Assembly: GCA_017743475.1 (NCBI GenBank)
Contig: JAGHYV010000051.1
Location: 1-35,685, forward strand
Direction of reading: 5' to 3'
Length of the DNA: 35,685 bases
DNA from: Roseiflexus sp.
GTDB taxonomy: Bacteria > Chloroflexota > Chloroflexia > Chloroflexales > Roseiflexaceae
In this document: piece by piece, positions 8,005 through 20,014 of the stretch
Layout of the letters: each line of letters opens with the position of its first letter
Position numbering within the stretch: the first letter of the stretch is position 1
The notes under the pieces: generated by a model
Database searches by the model: none
Told to the model about the DNA's origin: nothing
What the model saw: the letters and a program-made list of their open reading frames with translations, nothing else
Position numbers and translations under genes: made by a program

Positions 8005-11000
8005 CTATGCCTTCTTTGCCTCTGTGAGGTCGGGGTTCAGATTCTTGATCTTTGCCAGATAACTCACCCGCGGTTTTGTATTGAGTTTATCGAGCGATGT
8101 GTAATTCAGCGGTTGATCCTTCAAGGTCACAACCCGCGCCTGCGGATCGTTCAGGTCACCAAAGACAATCGCCTGTGTCGGGCAGACCTGCTCACACGCC
8201 GTCATAATCTCGCCGTCAGCGATGCGTCGATTTTCCTTGCGCGCTTCGATGCGCGCTTCGTTGATGCGCTGAACGCAGAACGAGCATTTTTCCATCACAC
8301 CACGCGTTCGCACGGTCACATCCGGGTTGCGCATCATCTTGAGCACTGGAATGCTCTCGTTCTCGGTTGATGCATCAGTTGGTGAGCGGTACGGCACATC
8401 CTGATAGTGCAGGAAGTTGAACCGGCGCACTTTGTACGGGCAGTTGTTCGAGCAGTACTTCGTGCCAACGCAACGGTTGTACACCATGTTGTTCAACCCC
8501 TCGGCATCGTGAACCGTTGCCGCCACAGGACAGACGATCTCGCACGGCGCCTGTTCGCACTGCTGGCACAGCATGACCATGTTGTAGACATCTGGCGTGT
8601 GCTCGTCGCCGACGTAGTACTGATCGATCCGGATCCAGTGCATCTCGCGCCCGAGCCAGACTTCGTCCTTGCCGACGACCGGAATGTTGTTCTCCGACTG
8701 GCAGGCAATGACACAGGCATTGCATGAGTTGCACACGTTCAGGTCAATCGACATGCCCCATTTGTAGCCATTGTACTCATACTCACCGATGAGTGAGACT
8801 GGCTCCTTCTTTTCGACCTGCAGGAACTTCTCGTTTTCCACATACTCGGCGAGCGTCCCGTACCGCACCAGGTCTTTCTTGCGCCCTTCCATCAAGAAGT
8901 GACCCTGAGTGCTTGACAGTTTGTAGTTTTCACCCACCTTCGCCACTTCCAGACCGACGCCGAACCAGGGCGTCGTGCTGGTGCGCAGGCGATAGGCATT
9001 GAACCCGACATTATTGCCGACCCTTCCAGCAGCCGTGCGCCCGAAGCCGAGATGCACCGTCACCGAGTCGTCAGCATGGCCCGGTTGCACCCACACCGGC
9101 GCATCCACCGAACGTCCCTGGTACGTCAACCGCACGACATCACCATTCTTGAGGCGCAGCGCATTCGCGGTGCGCACGCTCATCATAGCGACATTATCCC
9201 ATGTCAGTTTGGTATACGGCTTGGGGACTTCCTGCAACCAGGCATTGTTGGCAAACGCACCGTCCCATACCGACGGATCGGGGCGGAACACGATTTCCAG
9301 CCCCTGCGCTGGCGCTGATGGCGCAGCACTGGCAAACCCACGCTGGAGAGTCACCTGACGCGCCTGCGCCTGGGTGCCGGGAATAATGCCATCATGCAAC
9401 GCCCGGTTCCAGAAGACGCGGAAATTGCCGCTCGAATCCTGCGTCTGCCAGTAAGCAGTCAGTGTCTGGTAGCCAGTCTCCTGCGGCTTGCCAAGCAGCA
9501 CATTGAGCACTTCAATCGCCGACTTTCCATTGTACAGCGGGGCAATCAGCGGTTGGACAATCGTCACTGTGCCATCGAAGGCGCGCACATCCCCCCACGC
9601 TTCGAGGAAGTGCGTTCCATTAATATGCCAGGTGCTCTTCTGCGCAGTCTCATCGCGGTACAGTCCGACGTGAATGCTCAACGGCACTTTTGCTAGCGCT
9701 TCAGCGAACGGAATATCGGCTGGCGCATTGTAGACCGGGTTGCTATCGAGCATCACCAGCATCTCGACCGTACCAGCGTTCATCTCCTGGGTGAGCGCGC
9801 TGAGGGCGGCAATACCGCCTGACGGATCGCTCTCCACCGGATCGGTGTAGACCACCGTGCTCCCCACATTGCCAAGTTGCGCATTGATCGCGTGACCAAG
9901 CGCATGAACAACTGGCGGTTGACTTTCGCCGACCAGCACGACGCATGATCCACGGTGCGCCTGCATATCTTTTGCGACCGCCTCAACCCATTTCTTCTCT
10001 GCGTCGCTGAGAGCAGCACCCGCAGCCACATCAGGAACACCCACAAGGATTGCCAGCGCGCGCACCAGATGTTCAATCTGCGATGAGCGCACCGGCAGAC
10101 GATGATCGGCGAGCAAACCTGTAATCGAGGGCGTGCTTTCCGCCAGGTACAACCGGTTAACCTCCTTTGTCCCCTTGCGGATGCGACGCCCATCGGCGAG
10201 TTGACGCGCCATGCGCACGCCAGTCGGCGACGGCGCTGTAAAGTCGGAGTCGAAACCGACAATCACCTTCGCAGCGTCGAGACGATAGATCGTCTGCACA
10301 TCCTCGCCAAACGCCAGGCGTGCGCCAGCGTTGACATTATCACGACCGACTGGTTCGTACTGATACCACTTCGCCTGCGGGAATTGCGTCAGCAATTGCT
10401 GCTTTTGCGCAATCAGCGTCGGCGAGGTCATTGCCCCGGAAAGGATACGTAACCCGGCGCCTTGTTTCGCCGCCTGCGCCTGAATTGCAGCAGTTGCGGC
10501 AGCAACAAACGACTCCCATGTCGCCTCCTGACCGGCATTCATTGGCGACTGCGACCGATCCGGATCGTACATGGTCAGAATCATCGCCTGCGTGATCAGG
10601 TCAGTCGCCCCAAGCGACGCAGGATGGTCGGGATTTCCCTCAATCTTGGTTGGGCGCCCTTCATGACTTTCAACCAACACCCCTATGCCAAAGCCAGCGA
10701 ACGTCGCTGCAGTGGCAAAAAAGAGCGGTTTGCCATGAATAATCTCCTCTGGCTGGCGCACATAGGGAACAATCTTTTCCTGCGGTTGCTTCAGCGCGAA
10801 CTGGCACCCCGACAGGCCCGCGAGCGCCAGCGACGCACCCATCAACTTGAGAAAATTGCGCCGGCTCACCGGGTCGCGCCATTCGGCGGCGCCTTGCGGG
10901 AACTCACGCTTCAGCAGCTCATTGAACTCTGGCGTATCAGCCAGTTCATCGAGGCTACGCCAGAACTCGCGCCCCTCGGCATTGGCGAGGCGCGCACGCA

Positions 11001-11031
11001 ATGCGTTCACATCCTGGGACTTGGTATTCAT
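8005..11031 (-). CDS. actB: Alternative Complex III iron-sulfur/molybdopterin-like subunit ActB
   Basis: A 1008-residue fused subunit. An N-terminal segment has a twin-arginine motif RRNFLKLMG at residues 57-65 and a Cys at LSGC (73-76), consistent with Tat export and possible lipidation. Residues ~80-730 follow the molybdopterin oxidoreductase fold but are known in ACIII to lack the cofactor. Residues ~740-960 are a four-cluster ferredoxin domain, with cysteine runs CNSCNACVIACQ, CQQCEQAPCEIVCP, CVGTKYCSNNCP and CSFC...CEQVCP. It conducts electrons from the quinol site to ActA. The start at 11031 (MNTKSQ) lies 14 bases after the actA stop. The longer reading from 11151 would overlap actA by >100 bases. 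The domain order is normal for the family. Confidence 0.95.
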   Translation of the reverse strand: MNTKSQDVNALRARLANAEGREFWRSLDELADTPEFNELLKREFPQGAAEWRDPVSRRNFLKLMGASLALAGLSGCQFALKQPQEKIVPYVRQPEEIIHGKPLFFATAATFAGFGIGVLVESHEGRPTKIEGNPDHPASLGATDLITQAMILTMYDPDRSQSPMNAGQEATWESFVAAATAAIQAQAAKQGAGLRILSGAMTSPTLIAQKQQLLTQFPQAKWYQYEPVGRDNVNAGARLAFGEDVQTIYRLDAAKVIVGFDSDFTAPSPTGVRMARQLADGRRIRKGTKEVNRLYLAESTPSITGLLADHRLPVRSSQIEHLVRALAILVGVPDVAAGAALSDAEKKWVEAVAKDMQAHRGSCVVLVGESQPPVVHALGHAINAQLGNVGSTVVYTDPVESDPSGGIAALSALTQEMNAGTVEMLVMLDSNPVYNAPADIPFAEALAKVPLSIHVGLYRDETAQKSTWHINGTHFLEAWGDVRAFDGTVTIVQPLIAPLYNGKSAIEVLNVLLGKPQETGYQTLTAYWQTQDSSGNFRVFWNRALHDGIIPGTQAQARQVTLQRGFASAAPSAPAQGLEIVFRPDPSVWDGAFANNAWLQEVPKPYTKLTWDNVAMMSVRTANALRLKNGDVVRLTYQGRSVDAPVWVQPGHADDSVTVHLGFGRTAAGRVGNNVGFNAYRLRTSTTPWFGVGLEVAKVGENYKLSSTQGHFLMEGRKKDLVRYGTLAEYVENEKFLQVEKKEPVSLIGEYEYNGYKWGMSIDLNVCNSCNACVIACQSENNIPVVGKDEVWLGREMHWIRIDQYYVGDEHTPDVYNMVMLCQQCEQAPCEIVCPVAATVHDAEGLNNMVYNRCVGTKYCSNNCPYKVRRFNFLHYQDVPYRSPTDASTENESIPVLKMMRNPDVTVRTRGVMEKCSFCVQRINEARIEARKENRRIADGEIMTACEQVCPTQAIVFGDLNDPQARVVTLKDQPLNYTSLDKLNTKPRVSYLAKIKNLNPDLTEAKKA

Positions 11032-11045
11032 AGTCACGCTCAATC

Positions 11046-11708
11046 CTAGCGGTGGCAAATGGCGCAATTCGTCAATTCCCACGACGAGCGGATATTGTAC
11101 TCCTGCACCAGACGTCGTCCGACTTCGAGTTGGTTGGCTGGCGGCGTCCACGCCATGTTGTAGATTTCTTCGCGTGGACGGACGTATTTCTCAGGGTTGC
11201 GATGGCAATCCAGACACCACGACATGAACAGCGGCTGCGTCTTGTAGACGACGCGCATCTGGTCGACGCGCCCGTGGCACGTCGAGCAACCGATGCCCTT
11301 GGCAACGTGGATGCTATGGTTGAAGTAGACAAAATCGGGAACGTCGTGAACCTTATTCCACTGGATTGCATTCCCAGTTTCCCAACTCTGCCAGAGGAAT
11401 GCGACTTTCTCGCTGCGGCTGATAATCTGTGAGTGACATCCCATGCACGTTTCAGTCGGGGGAATGTTGGCATGGGCAGCAACTTCGACTGCTGTGTGGC
11501 AGTAGCGACAATCCATTCCCAGGGCAACGTGCAACTGGTGATTGAACCCACCCCCTGGTTGTTCAATAGGCACCCCAACATCCCGGTGCCAGTCCGACCA
11601 GCCAAACAGCCACCAGATCCCCCCAAGGATGGCAAGCACCAGCGGAATACCGGCAAAGATACTCACCCTGGCAAGCGTATTGGCTCTCCGATCGAATATC
11701 TGGGCCAT
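11046..11708 (-). CDS. actA: Alternative Complex III pentaheme cytochrome c subunit ActA
   Basis: A 220-residue protein with one N-terminal membrane anchor (about residues 14-36) and five heme c motifs: CRYCH (67-71), CMGCH (88-92), CSTCH (141-145), CLDCH (165-169) and CAICH (215-219). These are the hallmark of ActA, the periplasmic pentaheme wire of ACIII that passes electrons from ActB towards ActE and the soluble acceptor. It is the first gene of a six-gene minus-strand operon (actABCDEF). The start ATG at 11708 has GAAAGG upstream at six bases. The last heme motif ends one residue before the C-terminus, as I recall is normal. No actG-like seventh gene follows actF. Confidence 0.95.
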   Translation of the reverse strand: MAQIFDRRANTLARVSIFAGIPLVLAILGGIWWLFGWSDWHRDVGVPIEQPGGGFNHQLHVALGMDCRYCHTAVEVAAHANIPPTETCMGCHSQIISRSEKVAFLWQSWETGNAIQWNKVHDVPDFVYFNHSIHVAKGIGCSTCHGRVDQMRVVYKTQPLFMSWCLDCHRNPEKYVRPREEIYNMAWTPPANQLEVGRRLVQEYNIRSSWELTNCAICHR

Positions 11709-12300: not shown

Positions 12301-13200
12301 TCAGTAAATCGTCTTGCCAAGCGCCGAGAGCGCGAACTCAACCGCCAGCAGCGCCGTCATGTTGCGAGTATCGAGAATGGGATTGACCTCCACCAGATCA
12401 AGGCTGATCAACCGCCCCGACGCTGCGACCAGTTCCATTGCCAGGTGCGCCTCCCGATAGGTAATGCCACCCAGCACCGGCGTCCCAACTCCTGGCGCTT
12501 CATGCGGGTCAAGCACGTCGAGATCGAAACTGAGATGAAATCCGCTTGTGCTGGAGCTGACATGCAGGATCGCCTCTTCCATTACTGCTGCCATGCCGCG
12601 CCGGTCGATATCGTGCATGGTAAAGACATGGACGCCGGAGGTGCGCAGCAGTTCACGTTCGCCGCTGTCGAGGTTTCGCACCCCAACTAGCGCCGCATCT
12701 TCCGGGCGAATAACTGGCGTCCGTCCGATCAGTCCGGTCAACATTGGATGCCCGCGTCCAGTCAGAACTGCCAGACCCATGCCGTGAATATTTCCCGAAG
12801 GGGTTGTCTCTGGTGTATTATAGTCGCCGTGTGCATCGAGCCAGATAACGCCGATGCGCCGGTTGTGCGCTGCACCTGCAACCGAACCAATCGATAGACT
12901 ATGGTCGCCGCCAAGTACGATCGGCAGCGTATTGCCGGAGATGACATTGCGCACCTGTTGCGCCAGATCGCGCACAACGCCAACTATCGGTTGCAGGTAG
13001 CGCAACGGTTCGTCCAGAGTCGGAGGTTCAATTTGCTCCGCCAGCGGTACGGCAAGGTTGCCAAGGTCGCGCACCCGGTAGCCCAGCGCTGCAATCCGCT
13101 CACGCAAACCTGCATACCGGATGGCGCTCGGTCCCATATCGACGCCGCGCCGTCCTGCGCCAAGGTCGAGCGGCACGCCAATAATAGCAATATCACGCAT
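12301..13200 (-). CDS. rocF: Arginase
   Basis: A 299-residue ureohydrolase of the arginase type that cleaves L-arginine to ornithine and urea with a dinuclear Mn centre. All ligands are present: H100 in GGDHS, D122/H124/D126 in LDAHGDYN, and D226/D228 in SFDLDVLDP. This numbering is almost that of Bacillus arginase. The length equals the bacterial norm. The ATG at 13200 has no recognisable ribosome binding site, and only 19 bases separate it from the ATG of the divergent gene. Its promoter must therefore lie inside the neighbour, or the message is leaderless. Agmatinase and formiminoglutamase are less likely, because the N-terminal IIGVPLDLGAGRRGVD pattern is arginase-type. Confidence 0.94.
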   Translation of the reverse strand: MRDIAIIGVPLDLGAGRRGVDMGPSAIRYAGLRERIAALGYRVRDLGNLAVPLAEQIEPPTLDEPLRYLQPIVGVVRDLAQQVRNVISGNTLPIVLGGDHSLSIGSVAGAAHNRRIGVIWLDAHGDYNTPETTPSGNIHGMGLAVLTGRGHPMLTGLIGRTPVIRPEDAALVGVRNLDSGERELLRTSGVHVFTMHDIDRRGMAAVMEEAILHVSSSTSGFHLSFDLDVLDPHEAPGVGTPVLGGITYREAHLAMELVAASGRLISLDLVEVNPILDTRNMTALLAVEFALSALGKTIY

Positions 13201-13219
13201 ACGTGTGGAGGAAGAGTTG

Positions 13220-13669
13220 ATGGAGCGTTTCTTTCAGTATCTGAACATCTTTCCCATGCCACTCTGGCTGGCAATGATGTTTGCCCCCAATCATCCGTTG
13301 ACCGAACGGATGAGTCGTCCTGGTCCGCTGTTTATTATTGCTGGCTTGAACTATGTTGTGGCGCTGGCGCTGGCGGTGCGGCGCGGGCGACACGAGGGCG
13401 CTCGTATTGATTTTACATCGCTTGAGGGAATTCGCAAGGGCTTGAGTTCGCCAGAAGGCGCTGCTGCGGCGTGGGCGCACATGATCGCACTCGATCTGTT
13501 CAGTGGTGCGTGGATTTATCGTGAGTGCCGCCGCCTGAACGCTCCAGCCTGGGTACGTATTCCCTCCCTCTTCGCTACCCTGATGGCCGGTCCAGCCGGA
13601 TTGATGGGTTTTTTGATCTGGCGCCTGCGTTTGCCTGCCATCACTCGCCAACCGATAGATAAAGATTGA
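13220..13669 (+). CDS. ABA4-like (DUF4281) membrane protein
   Basis: A 149-residue integral membrane protein with about four hydrophobic helices. It shows the DUF4281/ABA4 pattern: an N-terminal MPLWLAMMFAPNHPLTERM segment, the hallmark WAHMIALDLFSGAWIYREC, and a closing IPSLFATLMAGPAGLMGFLIW. In plants ABA4 is needed for neoxanthin formation. Bacterial homologues are of unknown function, and a carotenoid or terpenoid isomerase-like role is inference, attractive in a carotenoid-rich phototroph. The start ATG at 13220 has the strong site GGAGGAAG. It is divergent from arginase with 19 bases between the start codons. A longer upstream reading would overlap arginase and lacks support. Confidence 0.82.
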   Translation: MERFFQYLNIFPMPLWLAMMFAPNHPLTERMSRPGPLFIIAGLNYVVALALAVRRGRHEGARIDFTSLEGIRKGLSSPEGAAAAWAHMIALDLFSGAWIYRECRRLNAPAWVRIPSLFATLMAGPAGLMGFLIWRLRLPAITRQPIDKD

Positions 13670-14158
13670 GAATACAAACCGGTATGCATCCGGTAGCCCG
13701 GCAGCTGGTGACGTTCTGACCGCGGGGCTGTCATACAAACCGGTATTTGCCCTTGCCATGGGGCTAACGAAGATTGAGCACTTAATCCGGCATCCTGAAC
13801 TGGACACGGAGCTAACGAAGACCTAATCTAGTATGCTAAACCGGTCATCGGGCTGATAGGGCATCTAATTCGGTGTGTGCCTCTTACCGTCAGGCTAAGA
13901 TGTAAATCGGTATTTGTTCTTGCCGTGGGGCTAAAGCCCTCGGCTACGCAAGGCAAAGCCTGCCTGCGCGGGGTTTGCCAGACTTCTTGAAACTTACAAG
14001 CTCTCAACCACGGAATGCAAAGCCCACCTGTGTGGCCAAGAGCGGGTTATTTAATCAAACACCATGAGTCCCCCAGCTGTACGGTGCAAAGCCTGCCTGC
14101 GCAGGCCGTACCAGATTTGCAGACAGATAATACAGCGCGAAAGCAACACGTCTCCCAG
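13670..14158. repeat. Repeat-rich intergenic stretch
   Basis: No gene is seen. acaaaccggtat occurs at 13674 and 13734, and a related taaatcggtat near 13902. ttgcc(a/g)tggggctaa follows the last two. gcaaagcctgcctgcgc-type units occur near 13952, 14017 (diverged) and 14087. Convergent genes flank it. A transcription-ending role is possible but not visible as a T-tailed hairpin. Confidence 0.65.
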
Positions 14159-15115
14159 CTATGCCCGCGCCATCGACGGTGCAGGCTGCGCTTCGGATGA
14201 CTGGGCACTCACACGCAGCGCCGACGCGGCCAGAAGGATCAGCGCAATCCAGACTGCATCCGCCAAGAACAGGTGCACCAGTTGCATCCAGACGGGCACC
14301 TGCAATGCGACGTTGACATACCCTGCAACCAGTTCCATCGCGTACAGCACGGTCAGCACAATCGCCAGGCGGCGCGTTGTTGCGCCCGGTCGTGCAGTGC
14401 TCGTGTACCAAGCTGCCACCACGACGAACGCGCCAACGCCAATTGCGAGTGCAGGGTGCATCATGCGGATCGAGACGATTGTCGCCACCAGCGGCGCCAG
14501 GTCTTCCTCACTGCCGCCAGCGCGGGTGTGGGCAAAGAAGAGGGTGTCTCCCAGAGCGATGACTGCACCGCTCATGCCGACCAGGATCAACCCGACCATA
14601 CTGGTGATCAGCCAGGATGCGACAGCGCCTTGACCGCGCAGGCGGATCGGTTCGCCGCCTGACGCCCACCATCCGGTCAGTGTAATACAGGCGATCAGAA
14701 TAAATGTGTTCAACAGATGCGCCGCCATCGAAAAGGCGCGCGTCAGCGACGCATTGTGCGCCACCAGTTCAAACAGCACCAACCCGGCGCCCAGCAGCGC
14801 TTCGGTGATGATGAACACCATCGATAGTTGCGCGCCGCGCCGGACGATATGACCTCGCGGGTATGCGCGATACGCCCACACAAGCATTCCAATTACCATC
14901 AGTAATGCGACGCCGCTGGTCAATCGATGGGTGAACTCAACGATGGTTTCAACTGCCGGAGCGCGTGGAATGACTTCGCCGTTGCACAGGGGCCAGTGAC
15001 TACCGCAACCCGCGCCCGAACCCGTTGCTCGCACAAACGCACCCCAGAGAATGACCAGCAGATTGTAGATCAACACTCCCCACACATAGGTTGCAAAGCG
15101 ATTGCGTGCCAGCAT
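14159..15115 (-). CDS. ctaA: Heme A synthase (CtaA/Cox15 type)
   Basis: A 318-residue, eight-helix membrane protein that oxidises the C8 methyl of heme O to make heme A for aa3-type cytochrome c oxidase. Features are the extracellular Cys pair C37-x6-C44 in CGSHWPLC, H63 in EFTHRL, and later helix histidines in AAHLL, MMHPA and QLVHL that bind the two hemes. The ATG at 15115 has AAAGGAAG six bases upstream. It is single, with its own promoter. Its location close to the act operon fits a respiratory neighbourhood: ACIII reduces the carrier that a heme A oxidase then oxidises. No ctaB is seen next to it. Confidence 0.93.
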   Translation of the reverse strand: MLARNRFATYVWGVLIYNLLVILWGAFVRATGSGAGCGSHWPLCNGEVIPRAPAVETIVEFTHRLTSGVALLMVIGMLVWAYRAYPRGHIVRRGAQLSMVFIITEALLGAGLVLFELVAHNASLTRAFSMAAHLLNTFILIACITLTGWWASGGEPIRLRGQGAVASWLITSMVGLILVGMSGAVIALGDTLFFAHTRAGGSEEDLAPLVATIVSIRMMHPALAIGVGAFVVVAAWYTSTARPGATTRRLAIVLTVLYAMELVAGYVNVALQVPVWMQLVHLFLADAVWIALILLAASALRVSAQSSEAQPAPSMARA

Positions 15116-15192: not shown

Positions 15193-15353
15193 ATATTGCA
15201 GCAATTGCGACAGGGCTTGAGCAACGAAAACAGCGGTCATTGCCAGATGACGCCTGACATACAAACGGAGCTGCCCTGCTCTGCCTGGAGGTTTATTGCA
15301 ACCCGTTGTTGTCTTCAACTACATTTCCGGTACTATGGGCGGGTCATGACCAT

Positions 15354-15382
15354 TTGTTTACTTTACGCATGTGTGATATACT
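15354..15382 (+). promoter_or_regulatory. Promoter of the gene at 15492
   Basis: TTGTTT at 15354-15359 and TATACT at 15377-15382 have 17-bp spacing. The predicted leader before the GTG at 15492 is about 100 bases. Confidence 0.5.
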
Positions 15383-15491
15383 GACAAAGAGCAGTCTCCC
15401 GATATGCTATCCCGATTACGCTACGCCTGCACCGTCCCTGCAGCATCGATCCGCCAGTTGTGTCGGCGTTGCGCTCGCCAGGAGGCTACCT

Positions 15492-15872
15492 GTGGAACAT
15501 CGCTCCGAGGCGCCTGATTTTGAGCGGATGGCACGCAATGCCGGGTATCGAGTTATAGTGACCGAGCGTCTCCGCAGCAATCGCTGGTTAGTCACGCTGG
15601 TGGATGGTGATGGTCACACGGTGCTTGTGCTGGCGCAAGCGCGTCCACTGATCGGTTCTGCCGATGTGCAGGACCTGGCGGAATTCGTTCGTTTGCGGAA
15701 CCCGACGATGGGGATTCTGCTCGCCATCGGCGGCGTGTTTAGCGCCAGTGCACACCACACCTGCGCCGAACTGCGCGACCGGCGCCTGCACCTCTGTACC
15801 GCGTTGCCGCCAGCGCCTGCTGTAGTTGCAGAAGAGTCCGCTATGCGCAATGCACTGGCATCACTGCGCTGA
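15492..15872 (+). CDS. Unrecognised protein, possible degenerate Mrr/restriction-endonuclease-like fold
   Basis: A 126-residue protein beginning at GTG (15492) with AGGAGG six bases upstream. A TTG start at 15306 would add 62 residues without any family-like character. Residues ~18-105 have the strand-strand-helix feel of PD-(D/E)xK fold proteins: YRVIVTERL...WLVTLVDGDGHTVLVLAQARP, then IGSADVQDLAEFV, then GILLAIGGVFSASA and RRLHLCT. This matches the order of Mrr-type domains (xVQCKR...V..VQ.L...GI.VT..GF). The catalytic lysine position reads Arg (QAR), and the Asp is uncertain. Nuclease activity is thus doubtful, and the fold is inference. Single gene, own promoter. Confidence 0.6.
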   Translation: MEHRSEAPDFERMARNAGYRVIVTERLRSNRWLVTLVDGDGHTVLVLAQARPLIGSADVQDLAEFVRLRNPTMGILLAIGGVFSASAHHTCAELRDRRLHLCTALPPAPAVVAEESAMRNALASLR

Positions 15873-16275
15873 TCGCTGTTTTCCTCAAAATCAGTGCGCT
15901 GGAAGAGTTCACATATCCCCTGGGAGCGGGGGCATTCTACCCCTGTAGACGCAACAAGGGCGGGACGCCCTCAATGGACCACGGTCACGCTGCTCCCTGC
16001 CAGTTCGACTACCACATCTCAACACAATCAGCGCTGTCTTTTTCTCTCCTTGTAAAACGGCGTACAGGAGTGGCAGGTGCCTGAACATGCCACAGATTCG
16101 CCTCGCCCTACACCTTTAGTCCTGTTTGTCTCCCACCCGTTTGACGCGCTGCGATTAGATACAATGACCTCTTTTTTGGCAGGGAGATGCATGCTATCCT
16201 GCCCCCGTAATGAACGACGCCTGTCCGCTTCTGACGTTCCGAATCAAACAATTTGCCAGAAACAGGGGAAGACCA
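15873..16275. other. Intergenic region before the ATPase pair
   Basis: About 400 bases with no gene seen. A short inverted repeat agggcg/cgccct at 15957-15971 could end the preceding gene, although no T-run follows. Open frames here are short, and none has a good ribosome binding site until 16276. Confidence 0.5.
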
Positions 16276-16686
16276 ATGAGAACTGCCAGCAGTGAGACGC
16301 CCGATTCACTGATCACTGCGCTGCTGCGCGCGCTGGAACCTGCATCCGCGAGTGACCCGCCAGACAATGACAGCGCCAGCGTTCCCAAAACCGTCACTCA
16401 AACCCTATCGGTCGAGCGGCTGGCGGCAATTGCGGCAATGCTGGCGACGGCACCATCGATTGTGGCAGTTGTTCCGCCCGGCGTCACGAAAGGACGCATC
16501 GCAGCGCTGTTATCGCCAGATGAACGGCGCTACGCCGGGACGGTGATGGAAGTGCTCGACCGCGCCGGAGTGCTGGTTGAGCCGCGCGCCGAAGCGTTGC
16601 GCTGGCGAGAGCCGCGCCTGTTTTGCCGGGACGACCGTGACTGGATCGTAGCGCAGGTGCGTTCGAGCAGCATGGAGGACCAATGA
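16276..16686 (+). CDS. Small protein coupled to the VirD4-like ATPase
   Basis: A 136-residue protein from the ATG at 16276, preceded by AGGGGAAG. Residues 1-40 are low-complexity and polar. From about residue 45 there is a helical segment, LSVERLAAIAAMLATAPSIVAVV, and then GVTKGRIAALLSPDERRYAGTVMEVLDRAGVLVEPR, a helix-turn-helix-with-wing-like arrangement, followed by an RWREPRLF strand. It ends ATGA-overlapped with the ATPase start, so the two are translated together. I do not recognise a family. A winged-helix partner that binds DNA or the ATPase is inference from secondary-structure feel and linkage. An alternative upstream ATG at 16210 lacks a good binding site. Confidence 0.6.
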   Translation: MRTASSETPDSLITALLRALEPASASDPPDNDSASVPKTVTQTLSVERLAAIAAMLATAPSIVAVVPPGVTKGRIAALLSPDERRYAGTVMEVLDRAGVLVEPRAEALRWREPRLFCRDDRDWIVAQVRSSSMEDQ

Positions 16687-19613
16687 GCCGCGTTGCACTC
16701 CGTTCCTCGTCTTCAAACCCGCCGCCAGCGACCCGTCCGCCGCGCCCAGACCTGCCGTTCCATCTTGTGCGCGCGCTGGCGTTGATCTGCATTGTGCTGG
16801 CGCTTATCCAACCACTGGCGCTACCGCAGGTTGCCGACTCACCTTCATTCCAGACGATCCCGCTACCCCGTGTCCTGCACGAGCCAGGAGTTGTTGCGCT
16901 GGCATTGCTGCGATATGCATTCGAGCCGCCGCTATTCCCGCTGATCAGCGCCGTGGCAGTGGCATCGCTGTGCATCCTTGCGGGGGAACTCAGCTTGGCG
17001 CTGATCGCAGCGATCCTGTCGCGCCGCGTTGCACGTCGCGCCACACGCTCGACGATCTGCCTGCGGGTTCGCCCCGCGCATACCATCGCCGGGACGAGCG
17101 CATCTGTTGCCAGACCGGGCGCGCTTATGCGTATGGTTCACGGTGGCATGGCGAAGCATTTCTGGATGCATCCTGCTCCACCGTATACCCTGATCATCAG
17201 TGGCGCACCAGATCTTCCCGCAGAACTGGAGGCGCTGATCAGCGGTACGCCAGATGATCAACAACGCGCCATGGGTGTGCTGGACGGCGCAGTACGCAGC
17301 AGCGCTCCGGGCGCACAGATCAATGCGACCGATGATCCGCTCATCGCGGCGGCAATTCCCGGACGCTGGATCGCCTGGCAGCGCTTCGGTCTGGCGCTGC
17401 CGCCGGCCTATCCGCTCCACACCCCGGCGCTTGTTGTTGAACATGAACTGGCAGGGGTATTGCTGGCGGCAGTCCGCCCCCACGGCAGCGTAGTGCACGC
17501 CGGGCTGGAGATCGCCCTGCGCCCACAGGGTGGCATGACCGGATGGGCGCTGGGGAAACAATGGCGCGCACGTGCGATGGCGCTGAAACTGACGCTTGAA
17601 CAGCGCCAGGATTATGCGCTTGCGCCAGATATTGCTGCCATCGAGGCAAAACTGGGCGATGCCGCATTCGAGGCGACCATCGTGGCAACCGCCGTCGCCG
17701 GGCGGCGTGATGACGCAATCGCTGCGCTCCACGCCATCGGTGATGCGCTTGGCGCATTCCAGCAACGCACCGCAAGCCGCTTGCAGCGTCTCATCCCGCT
17801 TGCCCGTGCGTCGGTCCGTCAGATAACTGTGGGTCAGGAGATGCAGACCGTATCGCACCTGCGCACGCCGCCGGTCTCACATCCCCCCACGCTGCTGCTG
17901 CCGTTCCGTCTCTGGCGTGGACCGGACATTTTGAGCGCCGGAGAAGTGGGGTATCTGTGGAATCTGTCCAATCCTCAGTCGAACGGATTGATGCGCTGTG
18001 ATCCATGCCGCCGGATTGCAGCGCCACCTCACGCCTTCTGTGCCGACGATCCGGAGCGTGTCATCGTTGGATATGCCCTGCACACCGATGGACACAGCGC
18101 ACCGGTTGGACCAACGCTGCGTGACCTGCGTCAGATTCTGCACCTGACCGCTGGCATGGGCGCCGGAAAGAGTCGTTTGCTGGCGAACCTGTGTCAGCAG
18201 TTGATCCCGCACGGATTCATGCTCATCGACGGCAAAGGCGATGATCGTGGCGGTAGTCTGGTTGATGTCGTGCGTCAACTGATTCCGGTCGCGGACGAAG
18301 GACGGTTTGTCCTGCTCGATCCGCTCGACACAGCATGGCCCATTGGACTGAACCCGCTCGCTGGCGCAGATGTGACACAACCTGGTGGCACCGATCTGGC
18401 GCTGGGGCAAATCCTGGCAACATTCGCGCGCATCGATCCTGATACGTGGGCGCGATCTCCAGGCATGCAGCAGTTCGCACGTATGGCAGCGCTGCTGGTG
18501 CTGGAGGGCGAAACGCATCCCACACTGGCGCACGTCAAACAGGCGCTGATCGACGAAGCGTACCGCCAGGAACTGCTCCGGTCGGTGCGGAACATCGAGG
18601 TCGCCAGTTTCTGGCTTGAGATATACCCGCGCCTGGGTGAGGGGCAGCGATCCAGTTGCGACGCGCTGTTGAGGCGTTTTGACGCCCTGTTGACCGCTGA
18701 AACGACGCGCTATCTGATGGCGCAGGCACGCCCCACGCTCGATCTGGCGCAGATGATTGCCGACCGGATGATCGTGCTGGTTCCGCTTCCCGATGTGGCG
18801 CTTGGCGGGCTGGCAGGCGCAGTCGGCATGCTGATTGCCCAGGCGTTTGTGCGTGCTGCCTTCAGTCGTAGCGGCAGTGACCGCACTCGCCACGACTATC
18901 CGTTGATCATCGATGAACTCCAGGTGCTGATCGGCAACAGCGACACAACCGATATAGCGACTGCCATCACGCGCCTGCGGTCGCTCGGCATTCCAGCGAT
19001 CTACGCCCATCAGGCGCTTGCACAGTTGGGCGATCTGCGCGACCTGATGCTGATCAATGCCGGGAACCGCATTATGCTGCAAACCCAGGAACCCGACGCC
19101 AGCATCTATGCGCGCGCCTACGCCGCCAGCGGTCTCACTGCCGCCGACCTGAGCGGGCAACCGCCGAACGACCATCAGTACGCCGTCCTGCGCTGTCGAG
19201 GCGTGGTGGCCGGACCTTTTTCGATGCAACCGCTCCCCTGGCCCTCTGTACGCGACGAGTCGCCGCCGCCATACCAGGGACCAGCGTGGCGCGACGTTCT
19301 ACCCGACGACGCCGATCCGGCAGACCGGTTCATCGTACGTGTCATCTACGATGCCGGTCCAGGCGTGGCTGCCGCCAATGAACTGTCGCACCTCAGCGAT
19401 GCCGACTGGCAGCGACTTTCGAGACGGTGGGAGCGGATCAGACAGGTTCAACGGCAGTACATCCTCGCGCATCCCGGTTGCATCGCTGATCGACTGGAAC
19501 GTCAACGCTGGCTATCGCGTCTCTATGCGGCGCGTCCGCGGGTGCTGGCTGCCGCTGAATACCTGCGCGGGCGTCAGAAAAGATCGCATCAGCAAGCCTT
19601 AAACTCGACGTGA
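16683..19613 (+). CDS. Membrane-anchored VirD4/TraG-like (HerA/FtsK superfamily) ATPase
   Basis: A 976-residue protein. Two hydrophobic segments lie near the N-terminus (about residues 28-50 and 85-112), then a basic linker. A long central region of no recognised family follows (about 120-450), with a CDPCRR...HAFC cysteine cluster near residues 440-457. The P-loop ATPase domain has Walker A GMGAGKSR near 492-500, LIDGKGDD after it, and Walker B LIIDELQVLI near 740-749. The closing QTQEPDASIYARAYAASGL segment is typical of coupling-protein ATPases. The family pumps DNA or protein across membranes in conjugation or type IV secretion, but no relaxase, VirB or pilus gene is present in the window. 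It overlaps the upstream small gene by 4 bases, with GGAGG before the ATG. Motor activity is likely, and the substrate is unknown. Confidence 0.85.
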   Translation: MSRVALRSSSSNPPPATRPPRPDLPFHLVRALALICIVLALIQPLALPQVADSPSFQTIPLPRVLHEPGVVALALLRYAFEPPLFPLISAVAVASLCILAGELSLALIAAILSRRVARRATRSTICLRVRPAHTIAGTSASVARPGALMRMVHGGMAKHFWMHPAPPYTLIISGAPDLPAELEALISGTPDDQQRAMGVLDGAVRSSAPGAQINATDDPLIAAAIPGRWIAWQRFGLALPPAYPLHTPALVVEHELAGVLLAAVRPHGSVVHAGLEIALRPQGGMTGWALGKQWRARAMALKLTLEQRQDYALAPDIAAIEAKLGDAAFEATIVATAVAGRRDDAIAALHAIGDALGAFQQRTASRLQRLIPLARASVRQITVGQEMQTVSHLRTPPVSHPPTLLLPFRLWRGPDILSAGEVGYLWNLSNPQSNGLMRCDPCRRIAAPPHAFCADDPERVIVGYALHTDGHSAPVGPTLRDLRQILHLTAGMGAGKSRLLANLCQQLIPHGFMLIDGKGDDRGGSLVDVVRQLIPVADEGRFVLLDPLDTAWPIGLNPLAGADVTQPGGTDLALGQILATFARIDPDTWARSPGMQQFARMAALLVLEGETHPTLAHVKQALIDEAYRQELLRSVRNIEVASFWLEIYPRLGEGQRSSCDALLRRFDALLTAETTRYLMAQARPTLDLAQMIADRMIVLVPLPDVALGGLAGAVGMLIAQAFVRAAFSRSGSDRTRHDYPLIIDELQVLIGNSDTTDIATAITRLRSLGIPAIYAHQALAQLGDLRDLMLINAGNRIMLQTQEPDASIYARAYAASGLTAADLSGQPPNDHQYAVLRCRGVVAGPFSMQPLPWPSVRDESPPPYQGPAWRDVLPDDADPADRFIVRVIYDAGPGVAAANELSHLSDADWQRLSRRWERIRQVQRQYILAHPGCIADRLERQRWLSRLYAARPRVLAAAEYLRGRQKRSHQQALNST

Positions 19614-19735: not shown

Positions 19736-20014
19736 ATGCAAAAGACTGACTTTATCAAGGCGGTTGCTGAGCGGGCGAACCGGTCGCAGAAGGAAACGAA
19801 GGAGATCGTCGATGCGGCGCTGGAAGTTATTACCGATGCGCTGAAGCGTGGCGAGAAAGTCACCCTGACTGGCTTTGGCACATTTGAAGTGCGGCATCGT
19901 CAGGCGCGTGAAGGAGTGAATCCGCAGACCCGCACAAAAATCCAGATCCCGGCGACCAAAACTCCTGGCTTCAGCGCCAGCAGTACGTTGAAGAACGCAG
20001 TGAAGGATAGTTGA
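19736..20014 (+). CDS. hup: HU-family nucleoid DNA-binding protein
   Basis: A 92-residue histone-like protein that bends and compacts DNA as a dimer. It matches HU along its length: an N-terminal MQKTDFIKAVAERANRSQKE helix pair, the VTLTGFGTFEVRHRQARE core, the NPQT turn at the tip of the DNA-binding arm (proline intercalates), and IPATKTPGFSAS in the C-terminal return. The start is the ATG at 19736, with a purine-rich GGAAGGAT upstream. It is monocistronic, with its own promoter and a strong hairpin after the stop. An upstream extension to 19610 is not supported. The paralogue symbol is uncertain, and IHF-like members look similar. Confidence 0.93.
   Translation: MQKTDFIKAVAERANRSQKETKEIVDAALEVITDALKRGEKVTLTGFGTFEVRHRQAREGVNPQTRTKIQIPATKTPGFSASSTLKNAVKDS

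Follow-up and report, generated by a model that had tools for sequence, protein, structure and literature searches.

The Rickettsia rvh type IV secretion system (T4SS) is vertically inherited and chromosomal, and its genes are scattered as an 'archipelago'; the T4SS-like genes of Roseiflexus that we describe here likewise appear to be chromosomal, vertically inherited and dispersed over the genome (PMC2653234). They differ from rvh, a known case of a scattered and vertically inherited T4SS, in T4SS class and phylum, in the Tad-type genes that belong to the main locus, and in a break that falls inside a gene. Tad pilus loci similarly hold adjacent genes for a T2SSE ATPase, ParA/TadZ-like, SAF/CpaB-like and (by eye) TadB/TadC-like proteins, but the Roseiflexus-type locus runs on into VirB6-, M23-, VirB4- and coupling-ATPase genes. 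With TrwB, DotL and TrwK, the ATPase encoded in our window (the whole 35,685-nucleotide stretch of Roseiflexus DNA analysed) shares a same-fold P-loop motor with a helical insertion (predicted-fold Z about 12.5-13.7), and like the coupling proteins it is membrane-anchored. Unlike these three proteins, it is anchored by two helices, after which comes an extra alpha/beta domain, its gene overlaps that of a winged-helix-like protein, and no relaxase partner was found. Mobile elements of Chloroflexales (L027 and L028) encode a VirB4-like ATPase, a winged-helix-tailed partner and the ATPase in the same order, whereas the Roseiflexus copy is single, syntenic and without a linked Replic_Relax or recombinase gene. 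The literature searched, with partial coverage, held no published description of the hybrid locus and nothing on a Roseiflexus T4SS.

The window contains two overlapping genes that probably supply the coupling ATPase, as a module, to a type IV secretion-like system encoded in the chromosome, the genes of which are split between two distant Roseiflexus loci. The features of this region are the following.

16276 to 16686, plus strand: 136-residue small partner (open reading frame, homology, dN/dS)
16408 to 16626, plus strand: winged-helix-like core of the small partner, residues ~45-117 (AlphaFold2 model, fold matches)
16683 to 16686, plus strand: ATGA stop/start overlap of both genes (sequence; present in all loci checked)
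16683 to 19613, plus strand: 976-residue membrane-anchored T4SS-class ATPase, coupling-protein-like (open reading frame, homologues, fold search, dN/dS)
16752 to 17042, plus strand: two predicted transmembrane helices, residues 24-51 and 84-120 (hydropathy, AlphaFold2 helices)
17043 to 17822, plus strand: N-terminal alpha/beta domain, residues ~121-380 (AlphaFold2 model, fold search)
17997 to 18041, plus strand: Cys cluster C439/C442/C453, CDPCRR...HAFC (alignment: not conserved)
18153 to 18173, plus strand: Walker A GMGAGKS, residues 491-497 (alignment)
18387 to 18719, plus strand: helical insertion in the motor, residues ~569-679 (AlphaFold2 secondary structure)
18903 to 18917, plus strand: Walker B LIIDE, residues 741-745 (alignment)
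19736 to 20014, plus strand: HU-family DNA-binding protein gene (Pfam; tblastn 89-97% identity)

The first-pass annotation had described a 136- and a 976-residue protein translated from an ATGA overlap. Both open reading frames were recovered, and a 4-bp overlap (ATGA or GTGA) was found in 11 of the 11 loci checked, among them congeners, other genera and mobile elements; this arrangement suggests that the two genes may be translationally coupled. The ATG at 16276 is taken as the start of the small partner in counting its length; the mechanical open reading frame begins at 16210. Neither gene gave a Pfam match over the cut-off, the ATPase matching only AAA_16 (E 0.39), and a PDB sequence search with the profiles of both proteins returned chance matches only. 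The AlphaFold2 model of the small partner had a mean pLDDT of 66 and mostly matched winged-helix proteins (best Z 6.5), a result that is weakly consistent with the winged-helix-like character first proposed for it. The small partner is homologous to the C-termini of proteins from six other loci (L045, L026, L047, L042, L027 and L028). A suspicion raised by eye, that the partner is an FtsK-like pseudo-ATPase with a gamma domain, is not claimed here: Pfam FtsK matched none of the partner proteins, the partner had no sequence match in the PDB, and FtsK gamma was absent among the fold matches listed for the small protein.

In the ATPase model (mean pLDDT 73, poor around and after Walker B), a pair of long helices at the N-terminus is followed by an alpha/beta domain and by the motor, which bears a helical insertion. 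Hydropathy analysis gave two N-terminal hydrophobic segments with peaks at residues 24 and 93, and an alignment of 15 homologues showed that G493, G495 and K496 of Walker A and D744 and E745 of Walker B are invariant. The best fold matches were the DndH C-domain (Z 14.5, 303 residues aligned, rmsd 3.7), VirB4/TrwK (Z 13.7, 505 aligned, rmsd 11.2), a DotL-type coupling complex (Z 13.6, 316 aligned, rmsd 4.0), TrwB (Z 12.6, 327 aligned, rmsd 4.2) and HerA (Z 12.0, 292 aligned, rmsd 4.6). On the predicted structure the motor clearly falls in the VirB4/VirD4/HerA fold class; the N-terminal helices, the intact Walker motifs and the fold search thus agree with the membrane-anchored VirD4/TraG/HerA-type motor previously suggested. 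Because the Z scores lie close together, fold does not separate VirB4 from VirD4, and the coupling role is favoured by the gene order, by the separate VirB4-like protein of the system and by a VirD4-family Pfam match in a distant homologue. This match (T4SS-DNA_transf, 28.8 bits) was over the cut-off in L035 only, the window ATPase being below the gathering cut-offs; a weak match to CedB (E 0.045) was also obtained. By comparison with TrwB and DotL, the modelled helical insertion would sit where coupling proteins have their all-alpha domain. The N-terminal domain aligned with the N-terminal region of VirB4/TrwK and, less strongly, with chains of the ESX-3 core complex (Z about 8), a likeness that may merely reflect a common arrangement. 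At two other loci (L031, 8523-9914; L037, 7898-9340), the N-terminal domain of this family is encoded by a separate gene right before a shorter motor, indicating that domain splitting recurs in the ATPase family. The Cys cluster noted earlier in the linker does contain C439, C442 and C453, but its conservation failed in homologues: the first Cys is gone in L023 and L025 and further Cys residues are gone in L026-L028. It is therefore unlikely to be a metal site, and a metal-binding cluster was rejected.

The window lies on contig C45 of a 4.97-Mb genome in 206 contigs (G000); the congener G002 is a single contig of 5.8 Mb. One copy of the ATPase gene was found in each of the five congeners (76-95% identity) and one in G009, from another genus of the family (66% identity). 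The HU gene directly follows the pair in all Roseiflexus loci checked and in G009, though not in G007 or G010, and marks the present site of the pair. Beyond HU lie a pdaA-like gene and, in some loci, DctP, and the upstream flank differs between loci. The window contained no tRNA gene that we could find, and no recombinase was present among the annotated neighbours of the pair. An open reading frame upstream of the pair (15306-15872) weakly matched NA-iREase1, an inactive restriction-endonuclease fold (E 0.027); among the loci compared its only homologue was in G002, ~4.5 kb further from the pair.

Within the window the ATPase is indeed an orphan without conjugation genes, as initially reported, but the genome carries a VirB4-like/VirB6-like/Tad-like locus elsewhere. 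With the VirB4-like protein of G007 as query, a VirB4-like gene of 59-61% identity was detected in each of the six Roseiflexus genomes and in G009, where it belongs to a second locus. In the window genome it lies at G000:C147:23133-24980, and in G002 it is at 2,724,031, 2.29 Mb from the pair at 5,012,044. The gene order of this second locus is conserved among the Roseiflexus genomes and G009. Pfam searches identified a strong VirB4-like match (P-loop_TraG/AAA_10), a clear M23 peptidase, a weak match to TrbL/VirB6-like proteins (E 0.001-0.002) and the Tad-type families T2SSE (two genes), ParA-like and SAF. Two membrane proteins encoded next to the T2SSE genes had no significant Pfam match and, judged by eye, resemble TadB/TadC. 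A 247-residue protein, which has a single hydrophobic segment and matched SnoaL-like marginally (E 0.087), is a VirB8-like candidate only. In Roseiflexus the VirB4-like gene is followed by genes for a 453-residue and then a 629-residue protein. At L083, the two T2SSE-family ATPases (10240-11481 and 12894-14981) share one Tad-like locus, and either could be the VirB11 or TadA equivalent. In a survey of 60 genomes, strong VirB4-like matches (E below 1e-200) occurred in exactly ten (G000-G005, G007, G009, G010 and G013), and all ten also carry the ATPase of the pair. The ATPase and a VirB4-type gene are in the same run in G007, G010, L028 and L042; in Roseiflexus they are unlinked and always co-occur.

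In G007 (L049 plus L026) the two parts form one unbroken run of ~20 kb with the ATPase gene last: SAF, ParA-like, T2SSE, TadB-like, TadC-like, TrbL/VirB6-like, M23, a 220-residue family, VirB4-like, a 464-residue protein, a 605-residue fused partner and the ATPase. A single contig of G010 similarly contains M23, the 220-residue family, VirB4-like, a 431-residue protein and a 643-residue fused partner, along with a portion of the ATPase gene. The fused partner (588-643 residues in G007, G010 and G013) matches the 136-residue protein over its last ~120 residues and the Roseiflexus 629-residue protein in its middle. On the G010 partner (L045, 643 residues), the profile of the 136-residue family aligned with residues 521-634 (E 2.7e-22) and that of the 629-residue family with residues 216-429 (E 3.7e-13); profile comparison of the two families found no similarity to each other. 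We infer that the Roseiflexus run was broken inside the partner gene, leaving the 629-residue N-terminal part by VirB4 and the 136-residue C-terminal part by the ATPase. The simplest history places this break in an ancestor shared by Roseiflexus and G009; the opposite polarity, a fusion elsewhere instead of a fission in Roseiflexus, is less economical. The split offers a natural domain boundary for experiments.

Selection was estimated by the Nei-Gojobori method, the resulting dN/dS figures being rough because the wider comparisons involve high synonymous divergence. Values were 0.14-0.18 for the ATPase, 0.23-0.35 for the 136-residue gene and 0.05-0.38 across the second locus (VirB4-like 0.05-0.07, 629-residue gene 0.31-0.38); for comparison, two ordinary neighbouring genes, DctP and pdaA-like, gave 0.04-0.21. 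By these codon comparisons both loci appear to be under purifying selection, and no gene looks unconstrained. The ATPase tree was resolved, with G009 adjoining Roseiflexus, and the VirB4 tree was mostly unresolved, so that the case for common vertical descent is carried mainly by gene order and co-occurrence and less by the trees. Strong ATPase homologues were confined to the same order in class- and phylum-wide samples of 158 and 400 genomes.

More distant copies (L027, L028 and L042) retain the order VirB4-like, partner, ATPase. A Replic_Relax gene follows the ATPase in L027 and L028, L027 additionally has a serine recombinase, and its VirB4-like gene is a fragment. Profile comparison showed that the small domain is the C-terminus of the partner in these elements and that the N-terminal part has no similarity to the 629-residue family. 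These copies are best read as mobile elements; with VirB4, Replic_Relax and recombinase genes adjoining them, the ATPase family evidently occurs in mobile elements too.

Collectively, the best reading is a split T4SS-like system that is vertically inherited, scattered and without a detected relaxase. It is supported by the VirB4-like second locus in all Roseiflexus genomes and G009 together with the single contiguous run in G007, and by co-occurrence in ten genomes, the split of the partner gene, purifying selection and the fold class of the ATPase. One genome, G014, counts against it: its ATPase is accompanied by a Replic_Relax-like gene, and of VirB4 it has no more than a fragment. The weak TrbL match, the poorly resolved VirB4 tree and the window ATPase falling below the Pfam gathering cut-offs also count against it. 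The synteny check of the pair, suggested in the first-pass annotation, returned neither of the outcomes foreseen there, a two-gene stand-alone system or a decaying relic, but a displaced and conserved part of a split system. That the ATPase and the winged-helix protein alone, beside HU, would translocate DNA or protein agrees with their adjacency and overlap in every genome checked and with their retention beside HU in Roseiflexus and G009; it is nevertheless improbable, given that the remaining apparatus is present in each of these genomes and, in G007 and G010, lies in one stretch with the pair, and that the small protein is a piece of a larger partner. Still less credence is due to a decaying relic of an integrative conjugative element. 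Distant homologues do adjoin VirB4-like, Replic_Relax and recombinase genes, and relaxases of PF03432 and PF08751 were not detected, but the pair is present as single intact copies with open frames in six of six Roseiflexus genomes and G009, its Walker motifs are invariant, and dN/dS is low at the pair (0.14-0.35) as at the second locus.

The relaxase families searched were PF03432, PF08751 and PF01076: none was found for the first two, the controls of which worked, and the PF01076 control itself gave no match. Replic_Relax gave only a partial match in Roseiflexus, covering 76 of its 191 positions and confined to three of the six genomes, and neither it nor a recombinase was linked to the pair there. 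Since these searches detected no relaxase, the split system is probably not a self-mobile conjugative element; its cargo is probably protein, or else DNA that it transfers with no relaxase of its own. Both possibilities are sub-cases of the split-system explanation and share the high probability given to it. Vertically inherited, relaxase-less chromosomal T4SSs are often effector systems (compare rvh), and the Tad-like genes suggest a surface structure. A T4SS/Tad hybrid that exports effectors or surface proteins, with the pair as substrate receptor, is accordingly a plausible candidate, held at somewhat less than even chance as no effector or pilin gene was identified. A chromosomal DNA-exchange apparatus for uptake or release, analogous to Helicobacter ComB, the gonococcal DNA-secreting T4SS or the archaeal Ced system and with the pair as DNA motor, is given a somewhat lower chance. 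The HerA/VirB4/VirD4-class motor, the winged-helix-like partner, the weak CedB match and the lack of PF03432 and PF08751 relaxases are in keeping with it, but nothing in the analysis points specifically to DNA as cargo, and ordinary competence may suffice, as a ComEC homologue is present in most of these genomes.

In the split system, the 976-residue protein would act as a membrane-anchored hexameric motor that docks on a VirB4/VirB6 inner-membrane complex made from the second locus and feeds substrate in. The 136-residue winged-helix domain, formerly the tail of the partner, would work in trans at the motor, where it may recognise the substrate or DNA or bridge the motor to the 629-residue partner. 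More tentatively, the Roseiflexaceae machine could be a hybrid in which a vertically inherited Tad-type assembly module and a relaxase-less VirB4/VirB6/coupling-ATPase module serve a non-conjugative use and in which, in Roseiflexus, the winged-helix domain of a split scaffold gene acts in trans from another locus; equally speculative is its use in hot-spring mats for DNA exchange or effector delivery. That a Tad/T4SS-like hybrid locus, with no relaxase detected, is conserved among phototrophs prompts the question of what it does in microbial mats. The locus also illustrates that an ATPase which looks orphaned within one window may belong to a complete system from which it has been displaced; here the missing parts can now be named.

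Other origins and contexts were considered. A phage origin was rejected, there being no relative in viral contigs at the sensitivity used, and the only PHROG match was to a family of unknown function; a defence system was likewise set aside, the only match being a generic HerA-like one (mad8). A gene of peptidase family C25 directly follows the distant ATPase homologue of G027 (L035, 7538-10105), and a gene 82% identical to it likewise follows an ATPase homologue in G039 (L048). Elsewhere in the window, positions 8005-11151 encode a molybdopterin-like/iron-sulfur protein with a TAT-variant signal that, with its neighbours, resembles QrcB/QrcC; these genes probably encode an alternative complex III.
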